DNA from: Pseudomonas xantholysinigenes
GTDB lineage: Bacteria > Pseudomonadota > Gammaproteobacteria > Pseudomonadales > Pseudomonadaceae
Assembly (NCBI RefSeq): GCF_014268885.2
Contig: NZ_CP077095.1
Coordinates: forward strand, 2,299,501 to 2,363,500
Direction: 5' to 3'
Length of the DNA: 64,000 nucleotides
Shown: positions 10,231 to 56,751 of the stretch, piece after piece
Layout of the letters: every line of letters begins with the position of its first letter
Numbering within the stretch: position 1 is the stretch's first letter
Position numbers and translations under genes: made by a program
The notes under the pieces: generated by a model
The model's database searches: none
What the model was told of the DNA's origin: nothing
Seen by the model: the letters and a program-made list of their open reading frames with translations, nothing else

Positions 10231-10448
10231 TGGAGCAGGCACTCGCTCGGTCGGATCGCTGCACGTGCCCGCCACGCTATGCTAAGTTTGATGACGTCCT
10301 CGTGACGCGCCGGATCAGGATGCAGGGATGACAGGGTGCCAGTTGACCCTGTGCGCGCCTGTCGGGCAGCCAACAATAAGAAAAGATGGTGTGTTTCAAC
10401 TGCCGTCAATCAAATCGCCTGAGTGAGATCACGTCTCAAAGGATCAGC

Positions 10449-10937
10449 ATGAAAAGGAAATCGTGTGCGTTGGATTCGGTAGACCTGCAAATCCTTTCCA
10501 TCATGCAAGCGGACTGTCGCACGACATTGTCCAGGCTGAGCGAGAAGATAGCCCTGAGCGAAACACCCTGCTGGCGCCGGCTGAAAAGGCTGGAGGAGGA
10601 GGGTTATATCAAGCGTTACCAGGCCGTGCTGAACAAGCAGGTGCTGGGCTTCGACATCACCGCGTTCATCCAGCTCTCGATGGACTCCCATACCGCCGAA
10701 TCGACCCGGGCCCTGGAACAGCGCCTGACACCTTGCCCAGAGGTGGTGGCGTTGTACAACGTCACCGGTGATTTCGACTTCATGATCCACATCGTCTGCC
10801 CAAACATGGAGGCCTATTCACGGTTCGTCGAAGTGACCCTGCGCTCGCTGGGCAGTGTGCGGCAGATCAAGACGGCAGTGAGCCTGCGTGAGATCTGTGC
10901 GAACAATGTACTGCCGTTGTCGGCAATATCGGCCTGA
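10449..10937 (+). CDS. Lrp/AsnC-family transcriptional regulator
   Basis: 162-residue DNA-binding protein. N-terminal winged helix: LDSVDLQILSIMQADCRTTL, recognition-helix region LSEKIALSETPCWRRLKRLEEEGYI, then the RAM ligand/oligomerisation domain (ALYNVTGDFDFMIHIVCPNM, VRQIKTAVSLREI). AAGGA precedes ATG 10449. It faces the end of the leftward biosynthetic operon (10982-18589), 44 bases apart. Lrp-type proteins sense amino acids, which suits a neighbour with ATP-grasp and aminotransferase genes, but the target is inferred only from position. Confidence 0.88.
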   Translation: MKRKSCALDSVDLQILSIMQADCRTTLSRLSEKIALSETPCWRRLKRLEEEGYIKRYQAVLNKQVLGFDITAFIQLSMDSHTAESTRALEQRLTPCPEVVALYNVTGDFDFMIHIVCPNMEAYSRFVEVTLRSLGSVRQIKTAVSLREICANNVLPLSAISA

Positions 10938-10981: not shown

Positions 10982-11425
10982 TCAGCGCTTGTAGATATCG
11001 GGCCGGTGCAGTTGCCACAGGTAATTGGGCTGGTTGACCGGGGTGAAACCGAGCTTCTCGTACAGCCAGGGCGCCGTGGTGGTGGCCAGCAGGATGCGGC
11101 GCAGGGCCTGCACCTCTGGCACGTCCAGTAGCGCCTCGGATAACCGTCGGCCCAAGCCCAGGCCGCGATAGCGCTCATCGACGAACACATCGCAGAGGTA
11201 GCCGAAGGTGGCGTAGTCGGTGACCAGCCGGGCAAAGCCCACTTGTTGCTGGCCCGCATAGGCGCCCATGCACAGGCTGTTGGCGATGCTCGTCTCGACC
11301 CGATCACGGCTGATCCCCGCTGCCCAGGTCGAGCCGGTGAGAAAAGCGTGGATGACGTCCAGGTCCAGCCGTGTCTTGTCCGCTGACAGGCTGAAATCCT
11401 GGGTGGGGACGCTAGGGGTGTTCAT
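10982..11425 (-). CDS. GNAT-family N-acetyltransferase
   Basis: 147-residue acetyl-CoA-dependent acetyltransferase. The core is VGFARLVTDYATFGYLCDVFVDERYRGLG (residues ~62-90), with the acetyl-CoA loop YRGLGLGRRL and the C-terminal APWLYEKLGFTPV segment. It is the last gene of the leftward operon and overlaps the MFS gene by 14 bases. In antibiotic-like clusters such a gene often gives self-resistance by N-acetylation, or tailors the product; which applies here is unknown. Confidence 0.85.
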   Translation of the reverse strand: MNTPSVPTQDFSLSADKTRLDLDVIHAFLTGSTWAAGISRDRVETSIANSLCMGAYAGQQQVGFARLVTDYATFGYLCDVFVDERYRGLGLGRRLSEALLDVPEVQALRRILLATTTAPWLYEKLGFTPVNQPNYLWQLHRPDIYKR

Positions 11426-12629
11426 AGTGGCCTTCCTTGACGGGCTGCTGATCCTGCTTACGGTAGGCCACGACGAGCAGGATCGCCATGGCCGACAGTG
11501 CGCAGTTGATATACCAGAAGTGGCTGAAATCGAGCGCGGCGGCGTACAGGCTCGCGCTGGTGTTGCCGAGCACCGAGCCTAGCAGCCCCATCAACCCCAG
11601 CAAGCTGAAACCCACCGGCAGCAGGTCGACGCCCACGCTTTTGCTCAACAGCGAGTCGATGGCCGGGTCGATGGTGATTTCGCCCAGGGTGAACAACAGG
11701 ATGGCGCACAGGAACAGGGCCTTGCCCGACAGCTCGGCCATGAGCCAGAAGGTCAGCAGCATGCAGCCAAAGCCCAGGGCCAGGGTGGCATAGACTGGCA
11801 TTCGTCGCGACAGCCAGGTGTTGAACGGCAGTTGCAGCAACATCACGACAGCGGCATTGACCCAGAACACATGGGCCACCGCGTCGGTGCCCCACTGTTC
11901 GACGGCGATCAAGGGGAACGAGTACTCCAGCTGGATGTAGTGGAACTGGTAGGCCAGCGAAACCAGCATCAGCACGACTGCCAACGGACTGCGCAGGATG
12001 ACCCACAGCGCGCGGCTGAACGCCAGGCCGCGCGTGGCCTGGCTGCCAGGGCCAGGCGCGGGCGGGCGCACGGCGGCGAGAATCACCAGGGCCAGGCACT
12101 GGATCGCCGCGGCGGCGGCAAAAAACGCGGTGGGTGTCTGTTCGATCAGGGCGGCGCCCAGGCAGCTGCCCAGGGCCACGCCAAGGTTGTTCACCGTGCT
12201 GCGAAAGGAAAACAACAGGTAGTGGTTGTCGCCCGGCGTCAATGCCACCAGCGCAGCCTTGGCCGCCGGGGTGAAGAACGCCTTGCTCACGCCCAATGCC
12301 AGGCTGAGCACGCTGAGGCCCCAGGGGCTGGTGATGCCCGTGGCGAACAGGGCGTAAGTGCTGATCTGCATCACCAGGCCGATGCGCATGGTCAGCAGCG
12401 GGCCTTTGCGATGGCTCAGGTAGCCGCCGAGAAACGCGGCGCAGTATTGACCGAGCAGAAACAGCGTCAGTTGCCCGGCGGCGAACGAAGGCGGATGGTC
12501 AAGCACCTTGACCAGGTAGACGACGAAGAACGGAATGACCGAGAAATACCCCAGGGCTGTCAGGAACTGTACCAGTACCACGCGCCTGGCATCGCCCGGC
12601 ATGCTGCTCAGCAAGGTGCGCAGGCTCAT
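11412..12629 (-). CDS. MFS transporter, putative product exporter
   Basis: 405-residue protein with about 12 hydrophobic helices (for example GQLTLFLLGQYCAAFLGGYL, then YLSHRKGPLL as the MFS loop 2-3 signature). It has the drug-efflux MFS layout. It overlaps the ATP-grasp gene by four bases (ATGA) and the GNAT gene by 14, so it is translated with both. Likely exports the cluster's product; substrate unknown. Confidence 0.87.
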   Translation of the reverse strand: MSLRTLLSSMPGDARRVVLVQFLTALGYFSVIPFFVVYLVKVLDHPPSFAAGQLTLFLLGQYCAAFLGGYLSHRKGPLLTMRIGLVMQISTYALFATGITSPWGLSVLSLALGVSKAFFTPAAKAALVALTPGDNHYLLFSFRSTVNNLGVALGSCLGAALIEQTPTAFFAAAAAIQCLALVILAAVRPPAPGPGSQATRGLAFSRALWVILRSPLAVVLMLVSLAYQFHYIQLEYSFPLIAVEQWGTDAVAHVFWVNAAVVMLLQLPFNTWLSRRMPVYATLALGFGCMLLTFWLMAELSGKALFLCAILLFTLGEITIDPAIDSLLSKSVGVDLLPVGFSLLGLMGLLGSVLGNTSASLYAAALDFSHFWYINCALSAMAILLVVAYRKQDQQPVKEGHYEHP

Positions 12630-13774
12630 ACGACGATCACCTCGATATGATCGATGACCTGGCGCAGGCGCTCATGCAACTGCTGGGTATCGGGCGCTGA
12701 GGCGATGAGGCTGCCGTGACGCTGAAATGAATCGGCCAGTGGCTTGATCCGGTCGTCGGGCTTGAGGTTCAGCTCGAACCAGTGCACGTGGGTGGGGAGG
12801 CTGGCCGGCAGGCGGACGGACTGCACGGTACCGGGGGCGTATTCGAAGAACTTGATGGCCGCGCAGTCGCGCCGTGCCGGCTCCACCACGACCGGTTCGT
12901 CCAGCAACAGCCGAGCGTGGGCGCTGACCATGTCGAAGCCGGTGGCCAGTTCCACCAGTTGCCAGATCCGATCACCTCCCGGGCGATTATGGCATTCGAT
13001 GATGTCGATGCTGTCGCCGTCGCGCTTGAATTCGAGGTGGGCGGGGCCATCCACCAGGCCGATGGCATCCAGGCAACGTTGCAGGTAGGCCCAATGCTCG
13101 GGTATCAGGTCAAAGGCGCCGGGGGCGATCAGGTGGCCCGTCTCCACCAGGCCGTTGTCTCCCCCCAGCCATTTTTCGGTGATCGCCAGCAGGTGATGGC
13201 AGCCCTTGACGCTGAACGTCTCGCAACTGAACTCCTTGCCGTCCAACCATGACTCGATGATGTAGCGTCGTGCCGGGTGCAGGGTCACCGACTCACCTGG
13301 GGCCAGCACATGCACGTCGCGGCTGCCGGTGCCATCCTCCGGCTTGACCACCTGCCGCTCGGCCCAGCGATTGTGCAACAACGCCCCTTCCTGCGCAGTG
13401 TCCAGGGGGAGGAAGCGCACCCGGGTCAGGTCGTTGTCGAGCAAGGCCTGGCGCGTCAGCAGTTTGTTGCGTGTCACGACTGAAGGCTCGAGCAAAGGGG
13501 CCGGTACACCAAGCATCTGGCCGATGATGGCCGCTGGTACCACGCCTAGCTCGGTGTAGGAGAGCACGGCCCGCACGGGTGTGGCGGCGGCGATGGCCGT
13601 GGCCTGGAGCAGCAACTCCGGCAGTTGCGCGAAATTGCCCAGGTGTACCGGGCACGGTGCGCTGCGTTGCCAGGGCGTGAGGCGTTCCGGCTCGCTCAGC
13701 ACCACGACCGCGGGGGTCACGGCCAGCACCTTGCGCAGGTAGTCGTCGGTGGGGCCCAGTAATAACAAGCTCAT
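12626..13774 (-). CDS. ATP-grasp ligase, L-amino-acid-ligase-like
   Basis: 382-residue ATP-grasp enzyme: carboxylate + ATP + amine to amide via acyl phosphate. N-terminal MSLLLLGPTDDYLRKVLAV, middle TRNKLLTRQALLDNDL, ATP-binding QVVKPEDGTGSRDVHVL, ESWLDGKEFSCETF, and the metal/phosphate site HLEFKRDGDSIDIIECHNRPGGD. The overall pattern resembles BacD-type dipeptide ligases. It sits between the aminotransferase (3 bases away) and the MFS gene (4-base overlap). It may join an amino acid to another acid or to the peptide product; substrates are unknown. Confidence 0.85.
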   Translation of the reverse strand: MSLLLLGPTDDYLRKVLAVTPAVVVLSEPERLTPWQRSAPCPVHLGNFAQLPELLLQATAIAAATPVRAVLSYTELGVVPAAIIGQMLGVPAPLLEPSVVTRNKLLTRQALLDNDLTRVRFLPLDTAQEGALLHNRWAERQVVKPEDGTGSRDVHVLAPGESVTLHPARRYIIESWLDGKEFSCETFSVKGCHHLLAITEKWLGGDNGLVETGHLIAPGAFDLIPEHWAYLQRCLDAIGLVDGPAHLEFKRDGDSIDIIECHNRPGGDRIWQLVELATGFDMVSAHARLLLDEPVVVEPARRDCAAIKFFEYAPGTVQSVRLPASLPTHVHWFELNLKPDDRIKPLADSFQRHGSLIASAPDTQQLHERLRQVIDHIEVIVV

Positions 13775-13777
13775 GGG

Positions 13778-15028
13778 TCATCCTTGAAAGTCGGTGGCCA
13801 ATTCGGTGAACACTTCGAGAAAATCGTCCAGCGCGGCCTGGCTGACCGTCAGCGGGACGATCAGCTTGAGGGTGTCCGGCGCATGCGCACAGACCGTGGC
13901 GCAGATATGGTTGAGAAACAATGAATGCCACAGGTTGAAGCAGAGCTGGGCATCCTGGGCCTGGATGAAGACGCACGCGCCCAGGGTGTCGACCTGCCTG
14001 AGCACCCGCGGGCAGCGTGAGGCGATGCCTTGTAGCTGCTCGCCAAAGGCGGCCAGTGGTTGCCAGGTGGCGGGGGCTTGCAGATGGCTGTCCAGCAAGT
14101 CCAGCACCGCCTCGGCCAGGCGCAGCGCCAGGTTGTTGCTGGCGAAGGTGGAGCCGAGGATCTTCTGGCAGCCAGGTCGGGCGAACAGCCCGTCATAGAG
14201 CGCGTCGCGCATGAGCAACTGGGCGCTGGGGATCCAGGCGCCGGTCAGCGACTTGGCCAGCAGCAGCACATCGGGCTGTTCTCGCCAGCCCAGGGCCTGC
14301 ATGGCCGAGTAGTGCCCGCAACGCCCGAGGCCGCTGAATACTTCATCGACAATGCTGACCGTGGCGTGCGTGCGACAGCCGGCCAGTAAACGGTCGGCCT
14401 GGCTGGCGGGCAGGGTGCGGCCGCCACCCATGGCCTGCAGCGGCTCGATGATCAGCGCCGCGATATCGCCCTGGGCGAGCAGGGCCAGGGCTTCGTCAGG
14501 GTGGTCGAAGTAGTCGATGGTCAGGGCTGGTTTCAGGCTGTCGAATCCCATGCGTAGCGCGGGTTGGTCGCTCAGGTACTGGGTGAGGGCGCCACTGCCG
14601 TGAAAGCAACGTCGCCTGGCCAGCACCCGGCTTCTGCCGGTGGCCAGCAACGCCGCCTTGAGCGCCCCTTCCACCGCTTCGGTCCCGGTGCTGAGGCTGC
14701 ACAGCTTCCAACCCCCTTGCAGACCAAGGCGCGATATCAACCGGGGAGCCAGCGCTGCCCCGCCCTGGCAGATTCCCAGCGGCGCGCCGGTGGGAAGGTC
14801 CTCGGCCAGCAGCGTCAGCAGGCGCTGGCGCAGGCCGTCATGGTTGTGGCCCAGGATGGCCGCGCCATAGTGCCCGACCAAGTCCAGCCAGCGGTTGCCC
14901 GCGCTGTCGTACAGGTATTCCCCCCGGGCCTGGGTGAACAGCGGGACCTCGCCCAGTTGCTCCAGCAGCGCGGCCCACTGTGGATTGACGTGCTCGCAGT
15001 ACTGCGCCAGCACCTGGGCAGAGGTCAC
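13778..15028 (-). CDS. Class III pyridoxal-phosphate aminotransferase
   Basis: 416-residue fold-type I PLP enzyme. SLSTGTEAVEGALKAALLATG is the cofactor phosphate region, STVSIVDEVFSGLGR-like segment VSIVDEVFSGLGRCG holds the ring-binding Asp, and LLAKSLTGAWIPSAQLLM carries the Schiff-base lysine. GTG start at 15028 overlaps the upstream HDO gene stop (TGTGA). Family members use amino donors such as Glu, ornithine or alanine. In this cluster it could aminate an aldehyde or ketone made by the HDO enzymes; that is inference. Confidence 0.88.
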   Translation of the reverse strand: MTSAQVLAQYCEHVNPQWAALLEQLGEVPLFTQARGEYLYDSAGNRWLDLVGHYGAAILGHNHDGLRQRLLTLLAEDLPTGAPLGICQGGAALAPRLISRLGLQGGWKLCSLSTGTEAVEGALKAALLATGRSRVLARRRCFHGSGALTQYLSDQPALRMGFDSLKPALTIDYFDHPDEALALLAQGDIAALIIEPLQAMGGGRTLPASQADRLLAGCRTHATVSIVDEVFSGLGRCGHYSAMQALGWREQPDVLLLAKSLTGAWIPSAQLLMRDALYDGLFARPGCQKILGSTFASNNLALRLAEAVLDLLDSHLQAPATWQPLAAFGEQLQGIASRCPRVLRQVDTLGACVFIQAQDAQLCFNLWHSLFLNHICATVCAHAPDTLKLIVPLTVSQAALDDFLEVFTELATDFQG

Positions 15029-16434
15029 AGGAACTCATCCATGGTGAAATTCAGCGGTGGACGGCGCTGGAGCACATGGATGCGATGCAGTTCTTCCCAG
15101 GTCCGGTGGGTCAGTTCCAGCAGCAGCGCATAGACGGTGGCGGTGCCCTGTTGCTGCTGCTCGCTGAGCTCGCCGACCTCGGCCAGCATGATCCGCGAGA
15201 TGTACTGGTGGGCAAGTTTTTCGTTGAGCTGCTCGTGCTTGCGCGAGGGCCGGTTGTTGAACACCGTGGTACTGCTGAATTGGCTGGACAGGGCGTTGAG
15301 CAGGTTTTCCTGGCCCGGCAGGCCCTCGGTGATGGTGGCGGCGGCGAAGTAGGACACCACGTCGCGGGTGGCGATGTAGGTGTAGAAGTCGCACATCAGC
15401 TGGGCGCAGGGCGTGGGCAGCGCGCTGTGCAGTTGCTCTTCGGTCATGCCCAGCGACTTGCAGGTCTTGAGCTCGTACAGTTCATGCCCGGCCTCTTCCA
15501 TGTAGTAGCGTCGGGCCAGGCGCTTGAGCGGCCTGGGCAGGCGCTGGGCGATGGCGGGGCAGATCAGGTCGATGAAGCGGTCGGTGATGTAGTACTCCTG
15601 GGCGTAACTGGCAGCGATCAGCGCGTCGCAACGGTCGTTGTCGCCACGGAAGGCGGCGCGATACTGGCTGGGCGGCTGCTCGGCGAGAAAGTCCAGGCCC
15701 CAGCGCTCCAGGCGAATGGCCAGGTTGACGCCAGAGTCCACGCCTTCGATCGGCAGGATGGCCGAGCACAGCCTTTGCGCATCAGCCTGCTGGCTGCGCA
15801 CCAGCAACCAGGTCATGACGAACAGGCACTTGCGCACCTCGCCGGCCCAGAAGGCGCTGAACTCGATGTCGGGCAGCACCGGGGCCTTGCCGCCGATGCC
15901 TTGCAGCAAGGCGGCTGCCGCCGGAATCGCCGGCGGGCACACCACGCTCCAGCTGGTGAGGGCCAGGCGGGCATAGACCAGGAACATGTTCGAGCTGCTG
16001 GCGTAGATCTCGGGAATGCTTGCCGGGGTCGGCCGGGCGATGAAGGCCAACAATTCCTCGGCCACCTCCACGCGGGTGAAGTTGTGCTTGCGCAGGGTCG
16101 CCAGGGCTTCGTCGAGTGCCTGGGCCAGCAACGCGCGCTTGTTGGCCAGGGTGTGCTCCGGCGCCGACTCCCTGATCAAGCCAGCATCGTCGAGCAAGGT
16201 CATGATGTCCTGCAATTGCGGGTCGCCGCCGCTCTGGCGCAGTGTCGACCAGTGCTCGCTGTCACCGCTGGCCAGGCTGCGCAAGGTGCTGTCGAGCTGC
16301 TCGAGTGCGTCGGCTGAGAGCACGAACTCCGGGTGCCGCTCGCCAATCTCCAGGGTATCGCTGGCGCTGTCGACGGCCTGGTAGCCGATATTGAGGAAAG
16401 GTTTTCTGTAGCTGCCGATCGACCACTTGTCCAT
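15025..16434 (-). CDS. HDO-like (haem-oxygenase-fold diiron) protein 3 with PqqD/RRE-like N-terminus; possibly degenerate metal site
   Basis: 469 residues, the longest of three paralogue-like proteins in this operon. N-terminal residues ~38-90 have a PqqD-like pattern (LEQLDSTLRSLASGD, LQDIMTLLDDAGLIRE). The C-terminal helical part has an iron-ligand-like motif EEAGH at 313-317. In the second motif region, residues ~391-401 (VFNNRPSRKHE), the His and Glu seen in its two relatives appear lost, leaving His400. The extra ~140 residues in the middle are not seen in the other two. ATG 16434 follows GAGGTGAGG; GTG 16443 is an alternative. It overlaps the aminotransferase by four bases. Exact role unknown: enzyme or scaffold/regulatory subunit. 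Confidence 0.72.
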   Translation of the reverse strand: MDKWSIGSYRKPFLNIGYQAVDSASDTLEIGERHPEFVLSADALEQLDSTLRSLASGDSEHWSTLRQSGGDPQLQDIMTLLDDAGLIRESAPEHTLANKRALLAQALDEALATLRKHNFTRVEVAEELLAFIARPTPASIPEIYASSSNMFLVYARLALTSWSVVCPPAIPAAAALLQGIGGKAPVLPDIEFSAFWAGEVRKCLFVMTWLLVRSQQADAQRLCSAILPIEGVDSGVNLAIRLERWGLDFLAEQPPSQYRAAFRGDNDRCDALIAASYAQEYYITDRFIDLICPAIAQRLPRPLKRLARRYYMEEAGHELYELKTCKSLGMTEEQLHSALPTPCAQLMCDFYTYIATRDVVSYFAAATITEGLPGQENLLNALSSQFSSTTVFNNRPSRKHEQLNEKLAHQYISRIMLAEVGELSEQQQQGTATVYALLLELTHRTWEELHRIHVLQRRPPLNFTMDEFL

Positions 16435-16444
16435 GTGCCTCACC

Positions 16445-17434
16445 TCAGCTGAACAGACGCAGCTTGACCGCGTCCTGGTAGTAGGTGCAGATCTGGCTGT
16501 CCCATTTGCCCATCAGTTCCAGCAACGAGCACACGTGTACCAGGGTGACCCGGGTTTCCTCTTCCGACAGGGCAGGGAAGTAGCCCAGCAGGTCGTGGGT
16601 GATGTTGCCGTGGCCTTCGGCCTCATTGACGTTGGAGTGGCCGATGATCGGGCCCCAGAACGCCTTGGGCAGGTCCAGGCGTTCGCAGGCGGCAATGAAT
16701 TGCTGGTTGAATTCCGGGTAGGGCTCCTCGAACAGGAACAGCGAGCTGATGAACGACAGCAGGTGCTGGCGGGCGAACACGCCCAAGGAGGCGTAGATCG
16801 AGAAAGTGGTCGACAGCGGCGCCGTCTGCTTGAGCTTGTCCCGGTCGATGCCGACCGCGTGCAGGGCATCGGCCAGCAGCGATTCGTGGTCGTGTTCTTC
16901 GAGGAACAGCTTCTTCACCCCTTGGTACACCTCGGGGCTGCTGTTGTGCGCCAGCGCCGGCGAGATGACCCGCGGCGCCTGCTTGACGATGTGGTAGTAC
17001 TCGATGGCGAAGCCGATCAGTTGGCTGCGGGTCACGCGCTGCTCATGCATGCGTTGGTACAGCGGCGAGTCGCCCTGGCGCCGATGGAACGCGGCGATGG
17101 TCGCGGCCAGCCGGCGCGAGAACTCGCGGCCCGACAGCACTCCCTGGGGCTTGGGATAGCGGCCCTCGGTGAGCAGATAGTGCTTGTCCAGGTCGATGAT
17201 CAAGCTTTCGATGGTGGGTGCATCCAGCGACTGCGCGTACTTGCTGTAGAGCTCGTCGGTGCTCAGGCTGCCGTGCTTGAGATCCTCCAGCAGCTCGACC
17301 AGGCCGGGCAGTTGCGGATCTTCCAGGACGACGCCCTGCAGGCGGTAGTCCAGGTGGTGATTGTTGCCGTCCTGGGTGTGCTGGACCCCGGGCCGCAGTT
17401 TGGGGTAGCGGAAACGTTGGCTTTGCGTGTGCAT
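16445..17434 (-). CDS. HDO-like (haem-oxygenase-fold diiron) protein 2 with PqqD/RRE-like N-terminus
   Basis: 329 residues. Residues ~28-92 fit a PqqD/RRE winged-helix pattern (LDYRLQGVVL, LVELLEDLKHGSLSTDEL, IESLIIDLDKHYLLTE). The rest is a helical bundle with candidate diiron ligands in FLEEHDHESL (Glu179/180, His183) and GHSNVNEAEGH (His266, Glu271/273, His275). HDO-fold enzymes (UndA, BesC, SznF types) perform O2-dependent oxidative cleavages, N-oxygenations or decarboxylations. It is 10 bases from protein 3 and 11 from protein 1, so the three are co-translated. Confidence 0.75.
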   Translation of the reverse strand: MHTQSQRFRYPKLRPGVQHTQDGNNHHLDYRLQGVVLEDPQLPGLVELLEDLKHGSLSTDELYSKYAQSLDAPTIESLIIDLDKHYLLTEGRYPKPQGVLSGREFSRRLAATIAAFHRRQGDSPLYQRMHEQRVTRSQLIGFAIEYYHIVKQAPRVISPALAHNSSPEVYQGVKKLFLEEHDHESLLADALHAVGIDRDKLKQTAPLSTTFSIYASLGVFARQHLLSFISSLFLFEEPYPEFNQQFIAACERLDLPKAFWGPIIGHSNVNEAEGHGNITHDLLGYFPALSEEETRVTLVHVCSLLELMGKWDSQICTYYQDAVKLRLFS

Positions 17435-17445
17435 GCAGGCGCCCC

Positions 17446-18423
17446 TTATGGGTTCACGGACCGGAGGAGGGTGTCGGTGTTGGCGTAGTGCTCCCAGACC
17501 GCCGTGTGGAAGTCGTCGTACAGCTCGACGAAGACATGGGTGTTGGCCTTCATGCCGTTGAGCTGCTCAAGGGTGACCACCGGTATCTCGGCGAACAGTT
17601 CGCGGGTCAGCACGCCATGCTCGGCGCCGATGTTGATGTTGGCGTGGGCCAGGATCGGGGCGATGAACGCATCGCTGATCTTGCCGCTCTGCTGCATGGC
17701 GATGATGTAGCTGTCGACCTCGATGTCCTTGCCTTCGAGGATGCCCATGGTGGTGAAGAAGAACAGCGGGTCGGTGGCGGCCCAGTAGGCCAGCGCGTTG
17801 CACAGCGCCAGGGTCTCGGGCAGTGGTACCGAGGCGCGGATTTGTTCGGCGGTGATGCCCAGGGTGGCCAGGGCCTTGAAGATCAGTTCGTCGTGGCCGT
17901 ACTCCTCGCCATAGAACTCGTTCATCTTCAGGCGCGCCTTTTCCGAGGCGACATAGTTGAGCACCGGGGAGTCGAACCAGCTTTCGCGGTAGAGGAAGTT
18001 GAAGTTCTCGATGGCCATGCCGTAGTAGACATTGGCGGGAACCTCGGTCGGTGTCTGCAGGGCCTGCCAGAACTTGTTGGCGTAGAGCGTCTTGTGCAGC
18101 AGTTCGGCCTGCAGGTCCTCGATGATCAGGATCGCCTCGTCGCCGCTGAGGTAGTGCTCGCCGGAGTCGGTCCGGTAGGCCAGGTTACTGTGCGCCAGGG
18201 TGTCGAGGAACTCGCTGATCGCCTGGGGCTCCAGCGCGCTGTTGAGGGCGCTGACCTGGGCCAGCGTGCGTGAACCGTCGCACTGCGACAGCACCTGGTT
18301 CCAGTGCGCGGCCTTGCCTTCCAGCCCGGTGACTTCATGTGCGTTGCCCGAGAACATCAGGGTCTTCGCGTTGGGATCGTGGCCTTCCTCGAACCGGCCG
18401 AAGGCGATGAAGGATTCGCTCAT
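17446..18423 (-). CDS. HDO-like (haem-oxygenase-fold diiron) protein 1 with PqqD/RRE-like N-terminus
   Basis: 325 residues. Residues ~30-84 have a PqqD/RRE-like layout (HWNQVLSQCDGSRTLAQVSA, AISEFLDTLAHSNLAYRT). The C-terminal helical domain has EEYGH at 173-177 and a second ligand cluster HANINIGAEH at 260-269, which fits a haem-oxygenase-fold diiron oxidase. AAGGAG precedes ATG 18423. It follows the 35-residue peptide gene by 58 bases and leads the enzyme genes. If the N-terminal region is a true RRE it would bind the peptide leader; this is a prediction from pattern, not structure. Confidence 0.75.
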   Translation of the reverse strand: MSESFIAFGRFEEGHDPNAKTLMFSGNAHEVTGLEGKAAHWNQVLSQCDGSRTLAQVSALNSALEPQAISEFLDTLAHSNLAYRTDSGEHYLSGDEAILIIEDLQAELLHKTLYANKFWQALQTPTEVPANVYYGMAIENFNFLYRESWFDSPVLNYVASEKARLKMNEFYGEEYGHDELIFKALATLGITAEQIRASVPLPETLALCNALAYWAATDPLFFFTTMGILEGKDIEVDSYIIAMQQSGKISDAFIAPILAHANINIGAEHGVLTRELFAEIPVVTLEQLNGMKANTHVFVELYDDFHTAVWEHYANTDTLLRSVNP

Positions 18424-18481
18424 CCGTGGCACTCCTTGTCTGTAGGAAAGCCGGGCGTTGCGCCCGGCCATCGACATCGTG

Positions 18482-18589
18482 TTACAGGTGCGACGCCATC
18501 AGGATCGGGCGCTCGTTCTTGGCCTTGATGACGATCTTGCGGGTGGTGGACTCGGTTTTCTTTTCCGGCTTGACGGTGGTCTTCGACAT
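18482..18589 (-). CDS. Small basic peptide, candidate RiPP-type precursor (35 aa)
   Basis: 35 codons, ATG 18589 preceded by GTGAGGACA at good spacing. The N-terminal two thirds are rich in Lys, Thr and Glu (MSKTTVKPEKKTESTT), then a basic-hydrophobic stretch RKIVIKAKNE and the C-terminus RPILMASHL. It has no signal peptide, is the first gene of an eight-gene operon and is followed by three proteins with RRE-like N-termini. That is the layout of a ribosomally made, modified peptide: leader plus short C-terminal core. No standard annotation would name it. Family unknown. Confidence 0.62.
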   Translation of the reverse strand: MSKTTVKPEKKTESTTRKIVIKAKNERPILMASHL

Positions 18590-18872
18590 ATCATTGTCCT
18601 CACGGTTTGGGTGATGCCGGGCCATCCGATGATGGTGTCCATGCAATCGCGCCGCGCAACCTGCTCGATCCCGGCGGCACTCATTCAAGCACTCGGCGGC
18701 AGGAAGAAAATTGCTTTTTTGGCGGTGCGCGATGGCTATTGCTGGAAGTTTTTTTCCTCTTGGCGGCTTGGCCGGCGCAAGCGCGCCATGACGCACTTGC
18801 TCATGTTTCTCGCCTCCACCCGCCCACTCCCCCCATGCTAGAATCCGCCCCTTCGAATCTGGAGGTAGACGC

Positions 18873-19442: not shown

Positions 19443-19641
19443 GCCTGCGTAGTTCTTGCAATTCCTGGGGCTGCTGCGCGCAGCGTGGTGCCTACCTCCC
19501 GCCATGCGCTCTACCTGTAGGCGCCAGCCTTGCCGGCGATGGGATGTGCAGCGCTCCCGGAACAGCCTCGCGGTCCAACTGTCACACCCTCAAGGTCACA
19601 GCTATGCTGAACAAGGCAGGATCAAGCGGGGGAAACACCTC

Positions 19642-39857: not shown

Positions 39858-40793
39858 ATGGGGCCAATGACTTCGATGCACGATGGCAAGATAGACGCCC
39901 ATTTTTCTGGGCATGAGACGTTTCCGCTTCGTCAGATGTGGCTAAAAAAAGCGGTTGAGACCGCAGATGCAGATGGGCTCGTGCCCAAGACCACTTTCAC
40001 TGACGATAGGGCTATCGCAGAATTCGGTGTAGGCCGAAACATGGTTGCGGCTATCAAGCATTGGGCACTTGCGTGTGATGTTTTGGTGGAGGATGAGTCA
40101 CGACGTAATTTCCAGCTCAGCCCGGCAGGTAGAGAAATCTTCCTCGATGAGGGTTTGGATCCATTCTCTGAAAATCCTACTACCGCATGGTATGCACATT
40201 GGTGCTTGGCCGGTCGCGGGAACCGTTCCACCACATGGTATTGGCTTTTCAATGTATTCACCTCGCAATCATTCAGTCGAGACGAGGCGCTGCCTACGCT
40301 CACCAAATTTGCCCAAGCCATTTCTGGCGGGAGAAAACTGTCTAGCGCAACGCTGAGTCGCGATTTGGATACATGCTTGCGAGGATACGCTCCTAGATCC
40401 GCAATGTCCTCGGTTGAGGAAGCTGCTGAGCCTATGCTTGCTGAGCTCGGTTTACTCCAAGAGGAGCGAAAAGGCGTCTTCTCCTTCCGGCGCGGACCTA
40501 AATCAACGCTTACTGACGCTTTCTTCACATGGGCCCTCCTCGATTTTTGGCAGCGGCACCGGGTAGGTGAATCTTCCCTCACATTTGAAACCACAGCCTA
40601 CGCGCCAGGCTCTCCTGGTCGAGTCTTCAAACTCGATGAGGAATCAGTAGCGGAACGTCTTTTCACTTTAAGTGAGCTTACTGACGGCAAGCTACGGTGG
40701 TCTGATACCTCCGGACTACGTCAGGTTTACCGCGGTGATTTTGAATGTGAATTGATGATGGCCAAATTGTTGAGAGAGTCCTATGTCCGTTGA
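39858..40793 (+). CDS. DUF4007 protein, SspB-like
   Basis: About 311 residues with the DUF4007 N-terminal block (HFSGHETFPLRQMWLKKAVE) and a wing-like RNFQLSPAGREIFLDEGLDPF segment, suggesting a DNA-binding winged-helix. DUF4007 proteins precede a large ATPase and a PAPS-reductase homologue in Ssp-type phosphorothioation operons, where SspB is reported to nick DNA. ATGs at 39858, 39867 and 39876 are all possible. Overlaps the next gene by 11 bases. The family match is from memory; the nuclease residues were not verified. Confidence 0.75.
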   Translation: MGPMTSMHDGKIDAHFSGHETFPLRQMWLKKAVETADADGLVPKTTFTDDRAIAEFGVGRNMVAAIKHWALACDVLVEDESRRNFQLSPAGREIFLDEGLDPFSENPTTAWYAHWCLAGRGNRSTTWYWLFNVFTSQSFSRDEALPTLTKFAQAISGGRKLSSATLSRDLDTCLRGYAPRSAMSSVEEAAEPMLAELGLLQEERKGVFSFRRGPKSTLTDAFFTWALLDFWQRHRVGESSLTFETTAYAPGSPGRVFKLDEESVAERLFTLSELTDGKLRWSDTSGLRQVYRGDFECELMMAKLLRESYVR

Positions 40794-43700
40794 GCCTGAT
40801 GTTTTGCTCGAGCCCGCGCCAGTGAGAATCGAACGACACTATCGGCGCTCAGTCCGGATAGATGCAGATCTTGGACGGGATGATGCTTTGGACGGCTATG
40901 TGCTGACCGAGACTGCACGTGAAGCGCTTTCGATCATGACGCGACAGATCGTTGGCAGTAGTCAGCGCGCGTTCACTTGGACAGGTCCTTATGGAGGAGG
41001 GAAGTCGTCTCTGGCTCTCGTCCTAGCTGCTGCTATCGCCGATGATGCATCATTGCGCGAAAAGTCGGAGTGCTTCGTTGATAAGGTTCCCTCATTTCGA
41101 GAGGCGTTTAACACTGACGATGGCAGCTGGCTTGTTATTCCGGTTGTTGGACGTCGCAGCAGTATCCTCGCAGAACTTTCCAAGTCGCTTAGTAAAGCCA
41201 CCGGTCGGTCGGAATCAGCTGATAGCTCAGATGCATTGATACATGCGTTGGTGAGTGAGGCTGAAAAGGATGGCCGTGCCGGCGTACTTCTAATTGTCGA
41301 CGAAATGGGGAAGCTGCTTGAGGCATCAGCCGCGGGTGGTGACGATGTTCACTTCTTCCAAGATCTGGCGGAAGTCGCGGCTCGGAGCCGGGGAAAACTA
41401 GTCGTTTTGGGTGTTCTTCATCAGGCGTTCCGACAATACGCATCCCGTCTTGGCATTGAAGCAAGAGAAGAGTGGGCTAAAGTTCAAGGGCGTTTCTCAG
41501 ACGTCTCTTTTGTTGCCACGGGTGATGAAGTAGTCGAGCTCATAGGAAGGGCGATCCATTGCGATATTGCCCATCCAAACACAGCCGATATGAGCGACAC
41601 TATTGGAGCTGCCATTTCCGGCCGTCGTCCTGCAGTAGGGTGTGGTATGGGATCTCTTCTTGATAAGTGTTGGCCACTTCATCCAATAACTGCAGCGTTA
41701 CTTGGACCTGCTTCTCGTAGGCAGTTTGGCCAAAATGAGCGAAGTGTTTTTGGGTTTCTAACATCGCTTGAGCCCCACGGTTTCCAAGATTTTCTTTCGA
41801 CTTGGGATCAGCAATCTGTTTATGGGCCAGATCTTTTTTGGGATTATCTGCGAGCAAATCTTGAGCAGGCCATTCTCGCTTCTCCTGACGGGCACCGCTG
41901 GGCTCAGGCTGTTGAGGCAGTAGAGCGCGCTGCTTCCAAGGGTGCCACAGAAATAGAAATTTCGCTGGCAAAAGCACTCGCGTTGATCGACATGTTCCGC
42001 AGTGTTTCGGGACTTGCGGCAGATGAGGCTGTGCTGCACACCGTTTTACCTGGCTACTCGAAAGTTGAGATAGCCCGGGCTATGGAGCGCTTGGCGACTT
42101 GGCGGGTGGCGCTCTATCGAAGTCATCTCGGGGCCTGGACCATTTTTGAGGGCAGCGACTTTGATATTGATCAAGAAGTCGCGAAAGCTCGGGCGACGTT
42201 CGTGGAGGCTGACACGAAAGCATTGACGGCGCTGGCGAGTTTGAATCCGATCATCGCCAAGCGTCACTACCACTCCACCGGTACGTTCCGATGGCTAGGT
42301 GTGACTATGCATTCTGTGCAAGAAGCAGAGAGATTGTCGAAAAGCTACGAACCCGATAGTGGAGAGTTTGGTAGGCTGGCATTGGTTCTCCCTGAACGTG
42401 CGTCCACGCTCGAGGATGTGGCTAGGACCCTAAGCAAGCTGCAGAGTAACTCGAAGAAGACGCTGTTCTTCGGCATCCCGCCTAACCACCAGCTCATAGC
42501 TGACCTTGGTGCTGAGCTTATGTCATTGCGACTGGTTTACGAGAGCAGCCCTGAATTAGAGGGAGACTCGGTTGCTAGGCGCGAGGTGGCTGCGCGTTTA
42601 TCTTCTGTAAAGGGCGCGATAGAAGAAGCGTTGCGTGAGGCTGTCGCGCGTGCCGAGTGGTTGTACGAGGGGCACTTTATAAGACCGGCTAGCCTGTCCT
42701 CACTTGCCTCGGACGTGGCAGCTCGAACCTTCAGCTCTGCTCCTCAAGTGTGGAGTGAGCTCGTAAATAGAGATGCCCTATCCAGTAATAGCGTGAAAGC
42801 ACGCCGTGATCTGCTCCATCGTATGGTTCAAAATCCGCATGAGGAATGTTTAGGCATCGAGGGATACCCTGCAGAGCGGGGTCTGTACGAAACTCTTCTT
42901 TCCTCAACGGGGCTGCATCGTTTGGATAAGCAAGGAGTTTGGGGTTTCCAAGCACCCAAAGCAAGCAACTCGAGGAATTTCCATCCTCTGTGGAATGCAG
43001 CACTCAAGAAGTTCGCCAGCCAAATTGTCGGTCCGGTAGGGGTTAGGGAGCTTTACACCCTTTGGAGCGGCGCTCCCTATGGAGTGAAAAGTGGAATGCT
43101 CCCAGTGCTTGCTGTGGCGTTAATGCTCGCTCACTCTGACAAGGTTGCTATCTATCGGGACGGGATCTTTGAGCCTCGATTTACAGACGTCGACGTGGAC
43201 GAAATGCTGCAAGACCCTAGCCGCTTTGCGCTTCGGTGGGTTGATGAAGATCTTGAAAAATCCCAGCAGCTTAAAACTATCTCGGCTGTACTGATTAAGT
43301 GTGGTTTTGAAGCTACTTCCGAATCTCCGCTAGATATTGCCAGAGCGCTTGTAAAGGTCATTTTCACTCAACCGTTGTGGACAAGGCGTACGCAGCAGTT
43401 GTCGGGGCTGGCACGTGCTGTCCGCGATCTCTTGGTGAAAGCATCTGATCCACATCAGCTGCTGTTCGTAGATCTACCGAGCGTTTTTGAGAATGGCGCT
43501 GTGCGAGATGGAGCTCTCCTTGAGAGTGTTCTATTGGAGCTAACAGAAGCGTTTCCAGCAATGTTGAGAAAGGTAGATAACCGGCTAGCAGAAGCCATTG
43601 ACGCCAAAGAAGGAGATGATCCCGAACTCAGGGAGCGTGCCGGTTACGTCTCCAAAGCTACTGGAGATCTCCGCCTTGAGGGCTTTGCACTCCGCTTGCA

Positions 43701-44091
43701 GGAGCGGGATGGCACGGTTTTGGGGATGGATAACATACTGAGCCTGGCAGCGAAAAAGCCCCCACGCGATTGGACTGATTTAGATGTAGACGCTGCCTTG
43801 ATTGCAGTAGCTGATCTGTCGCTTGCTTTCAGGAGGGCCGAAGCGCTGATCGCGGTGAATGGTAGAGCACCAGGGCGTGAAGCCTTCTCTATTGTGATTG
43901 GTTCCGGCGGGTCGTCAGATGTGGTCAACAAGACCTTTGAGGTTGCCGGCAGAGATAGGGAGGCAGTTTCAGGTGCAGCCACGAAGGTTCTGGAGTTACT
44001 GCGTAACTCCGGGCTTGAGGGGGATCTGCTCCTCGCAGCTCTTGCTCGGGCTGGATCCACGATCGTGAACGAAGGGCCAGGTCATGCGTGA
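40783..44091 (+). CDS. Large P-loop ATPase, SspC-like
   Basis: 1102 residues. Walker A GPYGGGKSS at 68-76 and Walker B LLIVDE at 169-174 lie in an N-terminal AAA-like ATPase; the rest (~850 residues) is mostly helical and unannotated. It lies between the DUF4007 and PAPS-reductase genes with overlaps of 11 and 8 bases, so all three are translated together, which is the sspBCD order. Predicted to power PT installation or DNA scanning. Codon use is less GC-rich than in the flanking core genes. Confidence 0.78.
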   Translation: MSVEPDVLLEPAPVRIERHYRRSVRIDADLGRDDALDGYVLTETAREALSIMTRQIVGSSQRAFTWTGPYGGGKSSLALVLAAAIADDASLREKSECFVDKVPSFREAFNTDDGSWLVIPVVGRRSSILAELSKSLSKATGRSESADSSDALIHALVSEAEKDGRAGVLLIVDEMGKLLEASAAGGDDVHFFQDLAEVAARSRGKLVVLGVLHQAFRQYASRLGIEAREEWAKVQGRFSDVSFVATGDEVVELIGRAIHCDIAHPNTADMSDTIGAAISGRRPAVGCGMGSLLDKCWPLHPITAALLGPASRRQFGQNERSVFGFLTSLEPHGFQDFLSTWDQQSVYGPDLFWDYLRANLEQAILASPDGHRWAQAVEAVERAASKGATEIEISLAKALALIDMFRSVSGLAADEAVLHTVLPGYSKVEIARAMERLATWRVALYRSHLGAWTIFEGSDFDIDQEVAKARATFVEADTKALTALASLNPIIAKRHYHSTGTFRWLGVTMHSVQEAERLSKSYEPDSGEFGRLALVLPERASTLEDVARTLSKLQSNSKKTLFFGIPPNHQLIADLGAELMSLRLVYESSPELEGDSVARREVAARLSSVKGAIEEALREAVARAEWLYEGHFIRPASLSSLASDVAARTFSSAPQVWSELVNRDALSSNSVKARRDLLHRMVQNPHEECLGIEGYPAERGLYETLLSSTGLHRLDKQGVWGFQAPKASNSRNFHPLWNAALKKFASQIVGPVGVRELYTLWSGAPYGVKSGMLPVLAVALMLAHSDKVAIYRDGIFEPRFTDVDVDEMLQDPSRFALRWVDEDLEKSQQLKTISAVLIKCGFEATSESPLDIARALVKVIFTQPLWTRRTQQLSGLARAVRDLLVKASDPHQLLFVDLPSVFENGAVRDGALLESVLLELTEAFPAMLRKVDNRLAEAIDAKEGDDPELRERAGYVSKATGDLRLEGFALRLQERDGTVLGMDNILSLAAKKPPRDWTDLDVDAALIAVADLSLAFRRAEALIAVNGRAPGREAFSIVIGSGGSSDVVNKTFEVAGRDREAVSGAATKVLELLRNSGLEGDLLLAALARAGSTIVNEGPGHA

Positions 44092-44923
44092 GCGTCATCT
44101 GTTGGGGCTTTCTGGGGGACGTGATAGCGCTGCTCTAGCGGTATACATCCGCCAGACCAGGCCCGAATTGGATATCGAATATTTCTTTACCGACACCGGT
44201 GAGGAGCTGCCAGAGGTGCAGGACTTTCTCGGCCGGCTTGAAGGATTTTTGGGTAAGCCAATCCTGAGGCTGAATCCCAGGAGAGATTTTGAGTTCTGGT
44301 TAAGGGAGTACAACAATTTTCTTCCTTCACCTCAGACACGCTGGTGTACGCGGCAATTGAAGCTTGCACCCTTCGAGGAGTGGACTCGACCGATGCTAGC
44401 GGCAGGTGAGAAGGTTTTCTCTTACGTCGCAATCAGATCCGATGAAGACTATCGCGAAGGGTATGCCTCAAAGCATGAGAGCCTTAAGGTAGTGCTCCCT
44501 TTCCGTGAGGAGGGAGTAGATAAGCCCGGGGTTATCGAGATCCTGGAGTCCTCTGGTGTCGGCTTGCCCGAGTATTACGAGTGGCGAAGCCGAAGCGGTT
44601 GCACCTTTTGTTTCTTCCAACAAAAAATTGAATGGGTTCGACTGCGCGAACGGCACCCTGGCGCTTTCGAAGAAGCTAAGGCGCTGGAAAAGACAGCTTT
44701 GGATCATGGATCACCATTCACCTGGACTAAAGGTGAGCCGCTTTCTGATTTAGAAAAACCTACGCGCGTCGCTGCAATCCGTAAAGAATACGAAGCTCGT
44801 AAATTACGTGCCAAAGCACGGCGGTCAAGAAACCCTCTACGTCCATGGGAATACAACATGGATATCGATGATATTTATGGGGTCGATGAGGCTGACGGGG
44901 GCTGTAACATCTGTCATAAATAA
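44084..44923 (+). CDS. PAPS-reductase/DndC-family protein, SspD-like
   Basis: 279 residues. ATP-pyrophosphatase loop SGGRDS at 10-15, FFTDTGEELPE after it, Cys88 in RWCTRQLK, Cys173/Cys176 in SGCTFCFFQQK and Cys274/Cys277 in the C-terminal GGCNICHK. That gives cysteines for an iron-sulfur cluster as in DndC and SspD, which adenylate the DNA backbone for sulfur transfer. No cysteine desulfurase gene is in the window; a housekeeping IscS would have to supply sulfur. An ordinary sulfate-assimilation role is unlikely in this context. Confidence 0.82.
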   Translation: MRERHLLGLSGGRDSAALAVYIRQTRPELDIEYFFTDTGEELPEVQDFLGRLEGFLGKPILRLNPRRDFEFWLREYNNFLPSPQTRWCTRQLKLAPFEEWTRPMLAAGEKVFSYVAIRSDEDYREGYASKHESLKVVLPFREEGVDKPGVIEILESSGVGLPEYYEWRSRSGCTFCFFQQKIEWVRLRERHPGAFEEAKALEKTALDHGSPFTWTKGEPLSDLEKPTRVAAIRKEYEARKLRAKARRSRNPLRPWEYNMDIDDIYGVDEADGGCNICHK

Positions 44924-45030
44924 AGCGGTCGCCCCAGTAGTGCTCTGCGGTTCCCCTAAACCAATGTGTACAAATGGTAACGAGCTGCCGAATTTCTCGA
45001 CTATGTAATATCCTGGTCTGTTAAACTTGG

Positions 45031-45062
45031 TACGGCATTTGCAAAAAAAATTGCGAATGCCG
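45031..45062. terminator. Terminator-like hairpin between convergent island operons
   Basis: ACGGCATTTGCA (45031-45042) pairs with TGCGAATGCCGT (45051-45062) around an A-run; one mismatch. It lies midway between the sspD-like and receiver-protein stops. Confidence 0.6.
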
Positions 45063-45078
45063 TCCGTGTCATATTGAG

Positions 45079-46932
45079 TTAGGCGTGCCAAACGGCCAGC
45101 ACTAGCTTTGCTTTATTCTGTCCGTTGCTAAGCCAGTTATCATGATTGATTAGGAATTTCAAATCTCTCATGGAGCTAGGCTTTTCTTTGCAGTAAATCA
45201 GTAGCGTCTCGTTTATGAGTTTGTTGCCGGCCTTGAGTTGTACCCCCATATATGCGCGTAGTAACTCTTCATTGATAGAGGCTGGAAACGCCTCAATGAT
45301 GGAGCTCATACTTTCTCGATCTATATGAAGTTCGTCTGAGTTCCCTCTGCTCATGGCGTGTCCCGTTAAAGGGGTTCCTGCAAGTACAGACTCAGGGTCA
45401 GCTTCCGATAGTGTGCCGGCTAGTAAGGCAGTCCCTTGCAAATGCCAGCTAGACAACCTTCGCTGGAGTCCGACTCTCGATGCTCTCGAGCTATAGGTGG
45501 CTGCGATACTTTGAGCTTGGTCGAGGCGAAGCTCGCCTAGACCGGACCAGCCGTTTACAAAATCTTCCGCAAACTCTTGTATTGATGGTGTTCGGATGTT
45601 TCTTAAGTTCCATCCCAGGATTTCAGTTTCCGTATCGGTCGCTGTCGAGCTGAGGTAGACCATCGCCTGGTTTTTTTCTTGATTCAAGGGGCGCGAACGA
45701 ACCCCGCTTATAAGCAATAATGATACCTTGTCGAATGCATCCTCTTTGGCTTGAGCAAGATCACATGCTTGCGTTAGATTAAGCCACTCTGTGCCATCAT
45801 TAGAGCGTAGTACCATGCCAAAGCGAAGGCTCTTCTTTAGCCATTGCGCTTTGTTTAAAGCAGAGGACTGGGCAGGGTAAGTCGTATGATCAAGACTTGG
45901 TCCGCCACGCCACTCCATACTTCTCATAAGCCCTCGAATAGCTGCTCGAGAATCGCCTATCTCGGCCACTGGGGCTATAACATTTGTGTTGCGATGCTCC
46001 ATCAATGAGTCGCCGAGCACGCGAAGTGAACTACGTATTCCAGTATACGACTCCAGTGCTGTCAGTAAGTGGCGACTAATGCATTCCTCCACGTAGCGGC
46101 AAAAGTCATCATTGTCCAATGTTGCTGTTTCGTGGAGTATGTCCATGGCTTGCAAGTCTAGCTCCCAAAGCTTATTTGCTTGGTCTCGAGCTGCAAGCTC
46201 TAGTCCTTTAGATGTCTCACTTACAAAGTCTTCGACTGCTGAAACGAATGGTCTGTCGGACGCTAGCTGATGCAGCGCAGTCTTCCAGTGGATTAAATCA
46301 TCATCAGTCATAGGTTTGCCCATGATGCGCATTCTGGAACTTGATGCTTTCAGAAGTGGGCGGATACTGCGAAACTCGGACTGCAGTTGCGTGACGTGGG
46401 TTGACATCAATATAACTTGGAGTGGGTTGTCGCAGTCTTTGTGTGCGGTTATTACTGTGTCTATGAAGGGGAGCGTTTGCTGATTGGAGTTTCGAACTAA
46501 GTAGTAATCAACTATTATCAGGTCGTAGAATTTATCCGCAGGGATGAGCGGGGAGGAGTAGAAATCGATGTTTTTCGTCAGAAGTCCGCCATCTTCTAAT
46601 AATTTTAGTACGCGTCTTACAGGTGCAGCGTTATCATGTCGGGCCTCTAATATTTTATGAACTGCGTCACTTAATCGGGTTGGCGCTTCTTCGAGTATGG
46701 CCTTATCGGAAAGCGGTGTGGCAAGGTCAGGAATTGTTTCTATTTTCAGACCATGCTTGGTTAAGACGCCGATATATGCCTCATAGTCAGGATCGTGAGG
46801 ATCTCCAAGCAGTGCTGCGACGTCACCGTCGATGGAGAGCAGGTCTGCGGTACAAATATCGTTAGATAAGTCATCATCAATTATAGCAATTTTGATGATT
46901 TTTGCGTCTTGCAGAGATTTTTTGAGATCCAT
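45079..46932 (-). CDS. Large protein with diverged receiver domain (partner of the kinase-like protein)
   Basis: 617 residues. N-terminal response-regulator receiver with all key residues but a ~110-residue insertion: acidic triad Asp19-21 (IAIIDDDLSND), phospho-acceptor Asp142 in IIVDYYL, Ser177/Thr178 in ILMSTH and Lys206 in MGKPMTDD. The remaining ~400 residues are helical and show no known output domain. AAGGA precedes ATG 46932, and it starts 2 bases after the kinase-like gene ends, so the two are a unit. Whether phosphotransfer occurs is untested. Confidence 0.72.
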   Translation of the reverse strand: MDLKKSLQDAKIIKIAIIDDDLSNDICTADLLSIDGDVAALLGDPHDPDYEAYIGVLTKHGLKIETIPDLATPLSDKAILEEAPTRLSDAVHKILEARHDNAAPVRRVLKLLEDGGLLTKNIDFYSSPLIPADKFYDLIIVDYYLVRNSNQQTLPFIDTVITAHKDCDNPLQVILMSTHVTQLQSEFRSIRPLLKASSSRMRIMGKPMTDDDLIHWKTALHQLASDRPFVSAVEDFVSETSKGLELAARDQANKLWELDLQAMDILHETATLDNDDFCRYVEECISRHLLTALESYTGIRSSLRVLGDSLMEHRNTNVIAPVAEIGDSRAAIRGLMRSMEWRGGPSLDHTTYPAQSSALNKAQWLKKSLRFGMVLRSNDGTEWLNLTQACDLAQAKEDAFDKVSLLLISGVRSRPLNQEKNQAMVYLSSTATDTETEILGWNLRNIRTPSIQEFAEDFVNGWSGLGELRLDQAQSIAATYSSRASRVGLQRRLSSWHLQGTALLAGTLSEADPESVLAGTPLTGHAMSRGNSDELHIDRESMSSIIEAFPASINEELLRAYMGVQLKAGNKLINETLLIYCKEKPSSMRDLKFLINHDNWLSNGQNKAKLVLAVWHA

Positions 46933-46934
46933 AC

Positions 46935-49340: not shown

Positions 49341-49502
49341 GTGATTCAATTCCCTGAATAGATGTTAATAAGTACAGGTTTAAGCCAGGAGGATGACTTT
49401 ACATCGACCTACTATCCATGAAGCCAGAGCACCCTGTAGCCATAGGGTCAAGATCCTCCCTAGGTTAGCATTTGTAGATGATGCCATGATGATGTCGTGG
49501 TC

Positions 49503-55202: not shown

Positions 55203-55243
55203 GCAGTTCTCCAGAACGATAGATAAGGGAAGGATACCCGCAC

Positions 55244-56735: not shown

Positions 56736-56751
56736 TTCGAAACACTCCGTA

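Follow-up and report, generated by a model that had tools for sequence, protein, structure and literature searches.

What would a bacterium make with a 35-residue peptide and three heme-oxygenase-like diiron oxidases (HDOs) encoded in one operon? The question is raised by a 64,000-nt stretch of DNA from Pseudomonas xantholysinigenes (contig NZ_CP077095.1, positions 2,299,501 to 2,363,500; here called the window), part of a genome of 5.6 Mb on a single contig. A sequence-only reading of the window had proposed that the operon specifies a ribosomal or scaffolded peptide product. Two observations support that idea: all nine loci compared have, upstream of HDO-A, a short open reading frame (ORF) that ends in His-Leu, and two of the HDOs carry predicted PqqD-like domains. 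We consider it likely that the operon encodes a pathway of the ribosomally synthesized and post-translationally modified peptide (RiPP) type, in which peptide-gripping HDOs oxidise the C-terminal His-Leu of the peptide to give a small exported product.

An eight-gene operon headed by a small peptide gene

The operon consists of eight minus-strand ORFs (window 10982..18589):

18482..18589, minus strand: precursor-like peptide of 35 residues, MSKTTVKPEKKTESTTRKIVIKAKNERPILMASHL (Shine-Dalgarno-like GAGGA upstream; conserved C-terminus; codon comparison)
17446..18423, minus strand: HDO-A, 325 residues, predicted PqqD-like N-terminal domain and HDO domain (Pfam, profile comparison, model; ligands E174, H177, E230, H260, N264, H269)
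16445..17434, minus strand: HDO-B, 329 residues, predicted PqqD-like N-terminal domain and HDO domain (Pfam, profile comparison; ligand pattern starting at E180)
15025..16434, minus strand: HDO-C, N-terminal domain of the same layout, extra helical region and HDO domain (ligands E317, H320, E373, H403, N407, H412)
13778..15028, minus strand: class III pyridoxal-phosphate aminotransferase (Pfam Aminotran_3; nearest NCBIfam model PigE, far under cut-off)
12626..13774, minus strand: ATP-grasp ligase of the L-amino-acid-ligase type (Pfam ATP-grasp_4 and LAL_C2)
11412..12629, minus strand: MFS transporter, probable exporter, the direction being presumed (Pfam MFS_1)
10982..11425, minus strand: GNAT acetyltransferase, probably for self-protection (Pfam GNAT)

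The sequence-only reading had described this order, with gaps of at most 58 bases or overlaps, and all eight ORFs were recovered where it had placed them. From peptide to GNAT the intergenic distances are 58, 11, 1, -4, 3, -4 and -14 bases, the single base between HDO-B and HDO-C being counted from a GTG start (10 from an ATG). The HDO-C ORF is open from this GTG (16443-15025), and the alternative ATG at 16434 is the more likely start because the 16 relatives of HDO-C start there. The protein classes that had been named from motifs agree with Pfam, HDO-C only under the cut-off: Haem_oxygenas_2 matches HDO-A and HDO-B above its cut-off and HDO-C below it (E 5.5e-5).

Conservation of the peptide

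Loci for comparison came from HDO-A searches, which yielded the genome itself, genomes G144 and G312, contigs L009, L010 and L011, and plasmids L012-L015. A tenth locus, on a plasmid of Enterobacter chuandaensis (L015), was considered as a family member and dropped before counting, for its different gene set and an HDO of 24% identity. The nine that remain, all with a true HDO-A relative, comprise five Pseudomonas loci (the window included), one Vibrio locus and three plasmids, of Robbsia, Tistrella and Rhodococcus. Each has its short His-Leu-ending ORF, i.e. a candidate precursor gene beside the modifying enzymes, as in RiPP systems. Conservation of the enzymes with no short peptide gene adjoining, which the sequence-only reading had named as speaking against its proposal, was looked for and did not occur.

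The peptide has no Pfam match. Its C-terminus reads RPILMASHL in the window, RPILMAAHL in the four other Pseudomonas loci and in Vibrio, RPVLIPVHL in Robbsia, KPVLIAVHL in Tistrella and TIVAVAVHL in Rhodococcus (start uncertain), so that only the His and Leu are invariant across the nine; KPVLIAVHL is also the end of two further database peptides. As a background rate, small ORFs ending in His-Leu occur in 42 of 8298 overlapping 300-base stretches, the true ones counted in. When six loci were compared pairwise across the final 18 codons of the peptide gene, all 15 pairs had more synonymous than non-synonymous differences. Judged by these sequence comparisons, the peptide gene is real.

PqqD-like domains on the oxidases

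The N-termini of HDO-A and HDO-B appear to be recognition domains that would grip a peptide. Compared by hhalign with a profile of 13 PqqD-family domains (E-values refer to single comparisons), the HDO-A N-terminus matched at 91% (score 33.7) and that of HDO-B, from a profile of eight sequences of which two have over-long starts, at 82% (31.3). These scores lie well above the best of 60 column shuffles each (12.0 and 13.4, respectively), as expected of a RiPP recognition element (RRE). The N-terminus of HDO-C matched at 14% (score 20.6; best shuffle 12.7), which is weak alone, and the catalytic part of HDO-A, a negative control, at 0.16%. The three N-terminal domains match each other at 88-94%. 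Pfam and NCBIfam scans of the operon proteins gave no match to a PqqD family model at E 1 or lower. In the structural models of HDO-A and HDO-C (mean predicted local distance difference test scores of 89 and 82), the N-terminus comprises about four strands, three helices and a final strand, a layout that we take to resemble PqqD. Independently of its conservation, the predicted domains of HDO-A and HDO-B speak for the peptide as a substrate.

The metal site

We checked the ligand pattern in 11 HDO domains: the three window proteins, two in a Tistrella fusion, Tistrella HDO-C, three from Robbsia and two from Rhodococcus. All 11 contain E-x2-H-x52..54-E-x28..31-H-x3-N-x4-H, in a search that permitted Asn or Asp at the fifth ligand and returned Asn every time. 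The spacing is that of MboA, the mangotoxin acetylenase, whose ligands are Glu86, His89, Glu143, His172, Asp176 and His181 and which acts on Leu-Ala-Arg, the C-terminal carboxylate of this substrate entering the diiron site (PMC13185094). Five positions of the 3-His/3-carboxylate set are kept, and the sixth, Asp in MboA, is Asn. All six are invariant among 17 aligned HDO-C sequences and, apart from one Tyr for the first His, among 24 aligned HDO-A sequences, where the Asn is again invariant. Each of the three window HDOs has a carboxylate right after the first His, at the position of MboA Asp90. HDO-A also has a second E-x-x-H motif at residues 139-142, IENYHF in most aligned relatives and IENFNF in window HDO-A and in sequences P0010 and P0012.

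Searched against PDB sequences, the HDO-A profile matched MboA best (E 1.1e-4) and the HDO-C profile matched nothing clearly. In fold searches the HDO-A model had four matches at E <= 0.001, with 3dde and CADD best. The HDO-C model had none at this threshold; HrmI was best (E 4.0e-3), the best neighbours were HDO or heme-oxygenase-like folds, and MboA was absent among the 50 structures listed. A heme-oxygenase-like helical bundle is indicated for HDO-A and HDO-C by the models and for HDO-B by Pfam. We class HDO-C as an HDO because it has the complete ligand pattern and model neighbours of this fold.

A proposed pathway

In the pathway that we propose, the 35-residue peptide would be the precursor, with its strand-like stretch KIVIKAKNERPILMA gripped by the HDO-fused PqqD-like domains. 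The carboxylate of its C-terminal Leu would enter the HDO diiron site, as that of Leu-Ala-Arg does in MboA, and HDO-A and HDO-B would oxidise the terminal His-Leu. Chemistry at a peptide C-terminus is supported by the fact that MboA, the best PDB sequence match of HDO-A, works there, and an HDO in a RiPP pathway is plausible given the precedent of VarO. HDO-C would generate a carbonyl for amination by the aminotransferase, which a thiamine-diphosphate enzyme would replace in Tistrella, and in the gammaproteobacterial form the ATP-grasp ligase may append an amino acid. The product, small and resembling an amino acid or dipeptide, would then be freed by a further step and exported by the MFS or EamA transporter, and the GNAT would acetylate product remaining in the cell. 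Host peptidases might remove the leader, as for thiovarsolin, where release without a dedicated protease was proposed (PMC6511847).

Gene sets across lineages

All five Pseudomonas loci have peptide, HDO-A, HDO-B, HDO-C, aminotransferase, ATP-grasp, MFS and GNAT genes in the same order, a recurrence beyond chance. Vibrio sp. AND4 has peptide and HDO-A on one contig and the end of HDO-C through GNAT on another, with HDO-B not seen on these two contigs. The Robbsia plasmid carries peptide, HDO-A, HDO-B, HDO-C, aminotransferase, EamA and GNAT. Plasmid pTM3 of Tistrella mobilis has the peptide separated by a thiamine-diphosphate enzyme gene (L013:9914-11671) from HDO-A and HDO-B, which here are naturally fused in one gene; HDO-C is present, and the stretch gave no GNAT match. 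The Rhodococcus plasmid has peptide, HDO-A, HDO-B, MFS and GNAT, with HDO-C, aminotransferase and thiamine-diphosphate enzyme all missing. ATP-grasp is not among the annotated genes of the Robbsia and Rhodococcus clusters, and the Robbsia, Tistrella and Rhodococcus stretches gave no match to an ATP-grasp ligase. These gene sets have a core of peptide, HDO-A and HDO-B (the last not seen in Vibrio), HDO-C occurring together with enzymes that handle carbonyls and the ligase being present in some forms only; the eight-gene set is one form only of a wider family. That HDO-C co-occurs with an aminotransferase or thiamine-diphosphate enzyme, both of which are gone with it in Rhodococcus, suggests across the five lineages that it supplies a carbonyl.

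The optional ligase bears on a second explanation. In PEARL pathways a peptide serves as a re-used scaffold. Here, an amino acid might likewise be put on the C-terminus of the peptide by the ATP-grasp or another enzyme, modified by the HDOs and cut off, and the peptide recycled. An operon that has an L-amino-acid-ligase-type ATP-grasp in its Pseudomonas and Vibrio forms, and no protease gene, would suit such a cycle. However, the three plasmids keep the His-Leu end with no such ligase matched in their stretches, and an amino-acid C-terminus of a peptide of this kind would, to our knowledge, be a new substrate for the L-amino-acid-ligase family. We regard a re-used scaffold as unlikely.

Relatives of HDO-A are rare. 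Searches found one in 3 of 398 genomes of the genus (its own, G144 and G312) and in 1 of 369 of the class (its own only). In the genus and the order of the Vibrio genome, 1 of 118 and 1 of 394 genomes had one, in each case that Vibrio genome. The order of one class-level genome, chosen via a DNA-polymerase search of 85 genomes aimed at a Burkholderia relative, gave 0 of 2, and searching plasmids with HDO-B and HDO-C added no record to the HDO-A loci. An 8.3-kb segment including the operon aligns with Pseudomonas contig L009 at 72% DNA identity. Protein relatives at E <= 0.001 number 208 for HDO-A and 16 for HDO-C; among the matches listed (for HDO-A, the best 120 of 208) are proteins from Photorhabdus, Xenorhabdus, Chimaeribacter, Dickeya, Enterovibrio, Paraburkholderia, Chromobacterium and Sorangium. 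Right-flank homology in four relatives starts at window 18829-18836, with nothing further matching on the operon side within the 1.5 kb fetched. The rare and scattered occurrence of the family, on chromosomes and plasmids, suggests horizontal transfer.

The Enterobacter chuandaensis plasmid set aside above carries, at L015:379-9158, two HDO genes and genes for an aminotransferase, an M14 metallopeptidase, an MFS transporter and a nucleotidyltransferase. No small ORF ending in His-Leu was seen on its plus strand before ~9900.

A stem-loop behind the peptide gene

Two further features may bear on expression of the operon:

18449..18469, minus strand: stem-loop between the peptide gene and the HDO-A gene
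10386..10937, plus strand: Lrp/AsnC regulator accompanying the operon in Pseudomonas

A stem-loop stands just 3' of the peptide stop codon in 9/9 loci, with z-scores of -2.39 (window), -1.71 (L004), -2.02 (L005), -1.85 (L009), -3.14 (L010), -3.33 (L011), -7.86 (L012), -0.94 (L013) and -4.74 (L014). It is probably a partial terminator, and a likely role would be production of precursor in excess. A consensus terminator scan returned three terminator-like sites, this stem-loop not among them, and a promoter scan found none. The Lrp-type regulator, overlooked in the sequence-only reading, has a relative in 4/4 other Pseudomonas loci (at the opposite side in L010); none was seen in the Vibrio and plasmid stretches examined.

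A stem-loop so placed could also belong to an attenuator, in which a ribosome stalled at the His-Leu codons of a leader peptide opens the structure and the HDOs use a free amino acid. His-Leu does lie at the extreme C-terminus, and characterised HDOs act on free amino acids (PMC13108848). Yet there is a single His and a single Leu rather than a run of codons; in Pseudomonas, Vibrio, Robbsia and Tistrella the amino-acid sequence is conserved further back than the final two residues, and the six sequences compared drift synonymously; and the HDOs carry the predicted PqqD-like domains. On balance, an attenuator is improbable.

Comparison with known systems

The sequence-only reading knew of no described pathway with this gene set, and we found none in the open-access literature, where the mangotoxin (mbo) and thiovarsolin (var) clusters share parts only; the set may be among the at least 25 HDO/ATP-grasp clusters of the mangotoxin authors. 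Nor did we find there a described RiPP with an RRE-bearing HDO, thiovarsolin being the sole HDO-containing RiPP found. A 2026 review of HDOs mentions ribosomal peptide modification once in the portion available, citing the thiovarsolin paper (PMC13108848).

The var cluster of Streptomyces varsoviensis resembles the operon in its precursor peptide, HDO (VarO), ATP-grasp (VarL), MFS transporter (VarP) and lack of a specific protease, and differs in its YcaO/TfuA thioamidation, repeated core motifs and single HDO; no RRE is mentioned for VarO in the available part of that account (PMC6511847). On the side of the operon stand three HDOs, a class III aminotransferase, a GNAT and a C-terminal His-Leu, and Pfam finds neither YcaO nor TfuA among the eight proteins.

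With pyrroloquinoline quinone (PQQ) and mycofactocin the operon shares a short ribosomal precursor, a PqqD-type recognition domain and a small product that would be excised from the peptide. In both pathways a radical S-adenosylmethionine (SAM) enzyme acts on the precursor; no such domain was found by Pfam in the eight proteins. PqqC has the heme-oxygenase-like fold, as do the HDOs, and is listed among the fold matches of the HDO-C model, and the structures listed for both the HDO-A and the HDO-C model include a natural PqqCD fusion. CADD and 3dde, for all their likeness in fold, have chains of 214-215 residues and no peptide partner, and CADD sacrifices one of its own tyrosines (PMC13108848). 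CADD (TIGR04305) is also a sub-cut-off match of HDO-B.

The mbo set of Pseudomonas syringae has an HDO of the same ligand spacing, an ATP-grasp ligase and an exporter (PMC13185094, PMC3355146), of the EamA type as in the Robbsia form. It makes a tripeptide via two ligases, with a flavin/Fe2S2 reductase partner (MboB) and an arginine deiminase (MboE), and a ribosomal precursor is not described for it in the portion of that source available (PMC13185094). The operon has one ATP-grasp and no reductase or deiminase domain in its eight proteins, and identity with the mbo set is ruled out by gene content. That the ATP-grasp joins free amino acids into a short peptide for the HDOs to desaturate, the small gene being incidental, is very improbable, since what favours it (MboA as the nearest solved HDO by sequence; HDO, ATP-grasp and exporter in both sets) is offset by the missing mbo partners, by a ligase not seen in three of five lineages and by conservation of the small gene.

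RiPP-type systems are known already, as is, once in the literature found, an HDO within one. The novel elements are several HDOs that carry fused PqqD-like domains, a peptide C-terminus fixed as His-Leu, an Asn at one ligand position, and the gene set itself.

Weighing the proposed pathway

Several observations count against a RiPP-type pathway. No product or modified peptide was observed, and Pfam finds no protease among the eight proteins. The order of peptide gene and stem-loop also fits a leader-peptide attenuator, and in Tistrella the stem-loop is no stronger than shuffles (31/200 as good). The Tistrella peptide stands ahead of a gene other than HDO-A, and the Rhodococcus peptide, of uncertain start, resembles the others little apart from its His-Leu. 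The Photorhabdus, Xenorhabdus, Paraburkholderia, Chromobacterium and Sorangium relatives are proteins only and lie outside the nine-locus count. Among the HDOs, the PqqD match of HDO-C is low, metal binding is uncertain because Asn replaces the MboA Asp ligand in all domains checked, and the 50 structures listed as fold matches of HDO-A do not include MboA.

Elsewhere in the window

A short repeat resembling repetitive extragenic palindromic elements (~19495-19540) matches ten other places in the same genome. At 40783-50714, ORFs of 1102, 279, 617 and 403 residues without a Pfam match at 1e-5 surround an 804-residue ORF with HATPase domains. A single minus-strand ORF (54258-56783) combines an FGGY carbohydrate-kinase N-terminal domain with a PfkB kinase domain.

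Implications

A small exported product and an adjoining GNAT suggest a bioactive compound. With slightly less than even confidence, we propose a RiPP class defined by HDOs, two or three per pathway, that are fused to an RRE, contain Asn in the metal site and cut a small antimetabolite for export out of a ribosomal C-terminal His-Leu. Such a class would follow the logic of PQQ or mycofactocin through diiron oxidases instead of radical SAM enzymes, and would have spread horizontally across proteobacteria and actinobacteria. HDOs are a fast-growing enzyme superfamily, and Asn at the position of the metal-binding Asp of MboA raises the question of what that ligand does in catalysis. Simple co-expression would make it possible to test the action of HDOs on ribosomal peptides, since the substrate here is gene-encoded with a fixed C-terminus and the HDOs seem to come with a peptide-gripping domain of their own.

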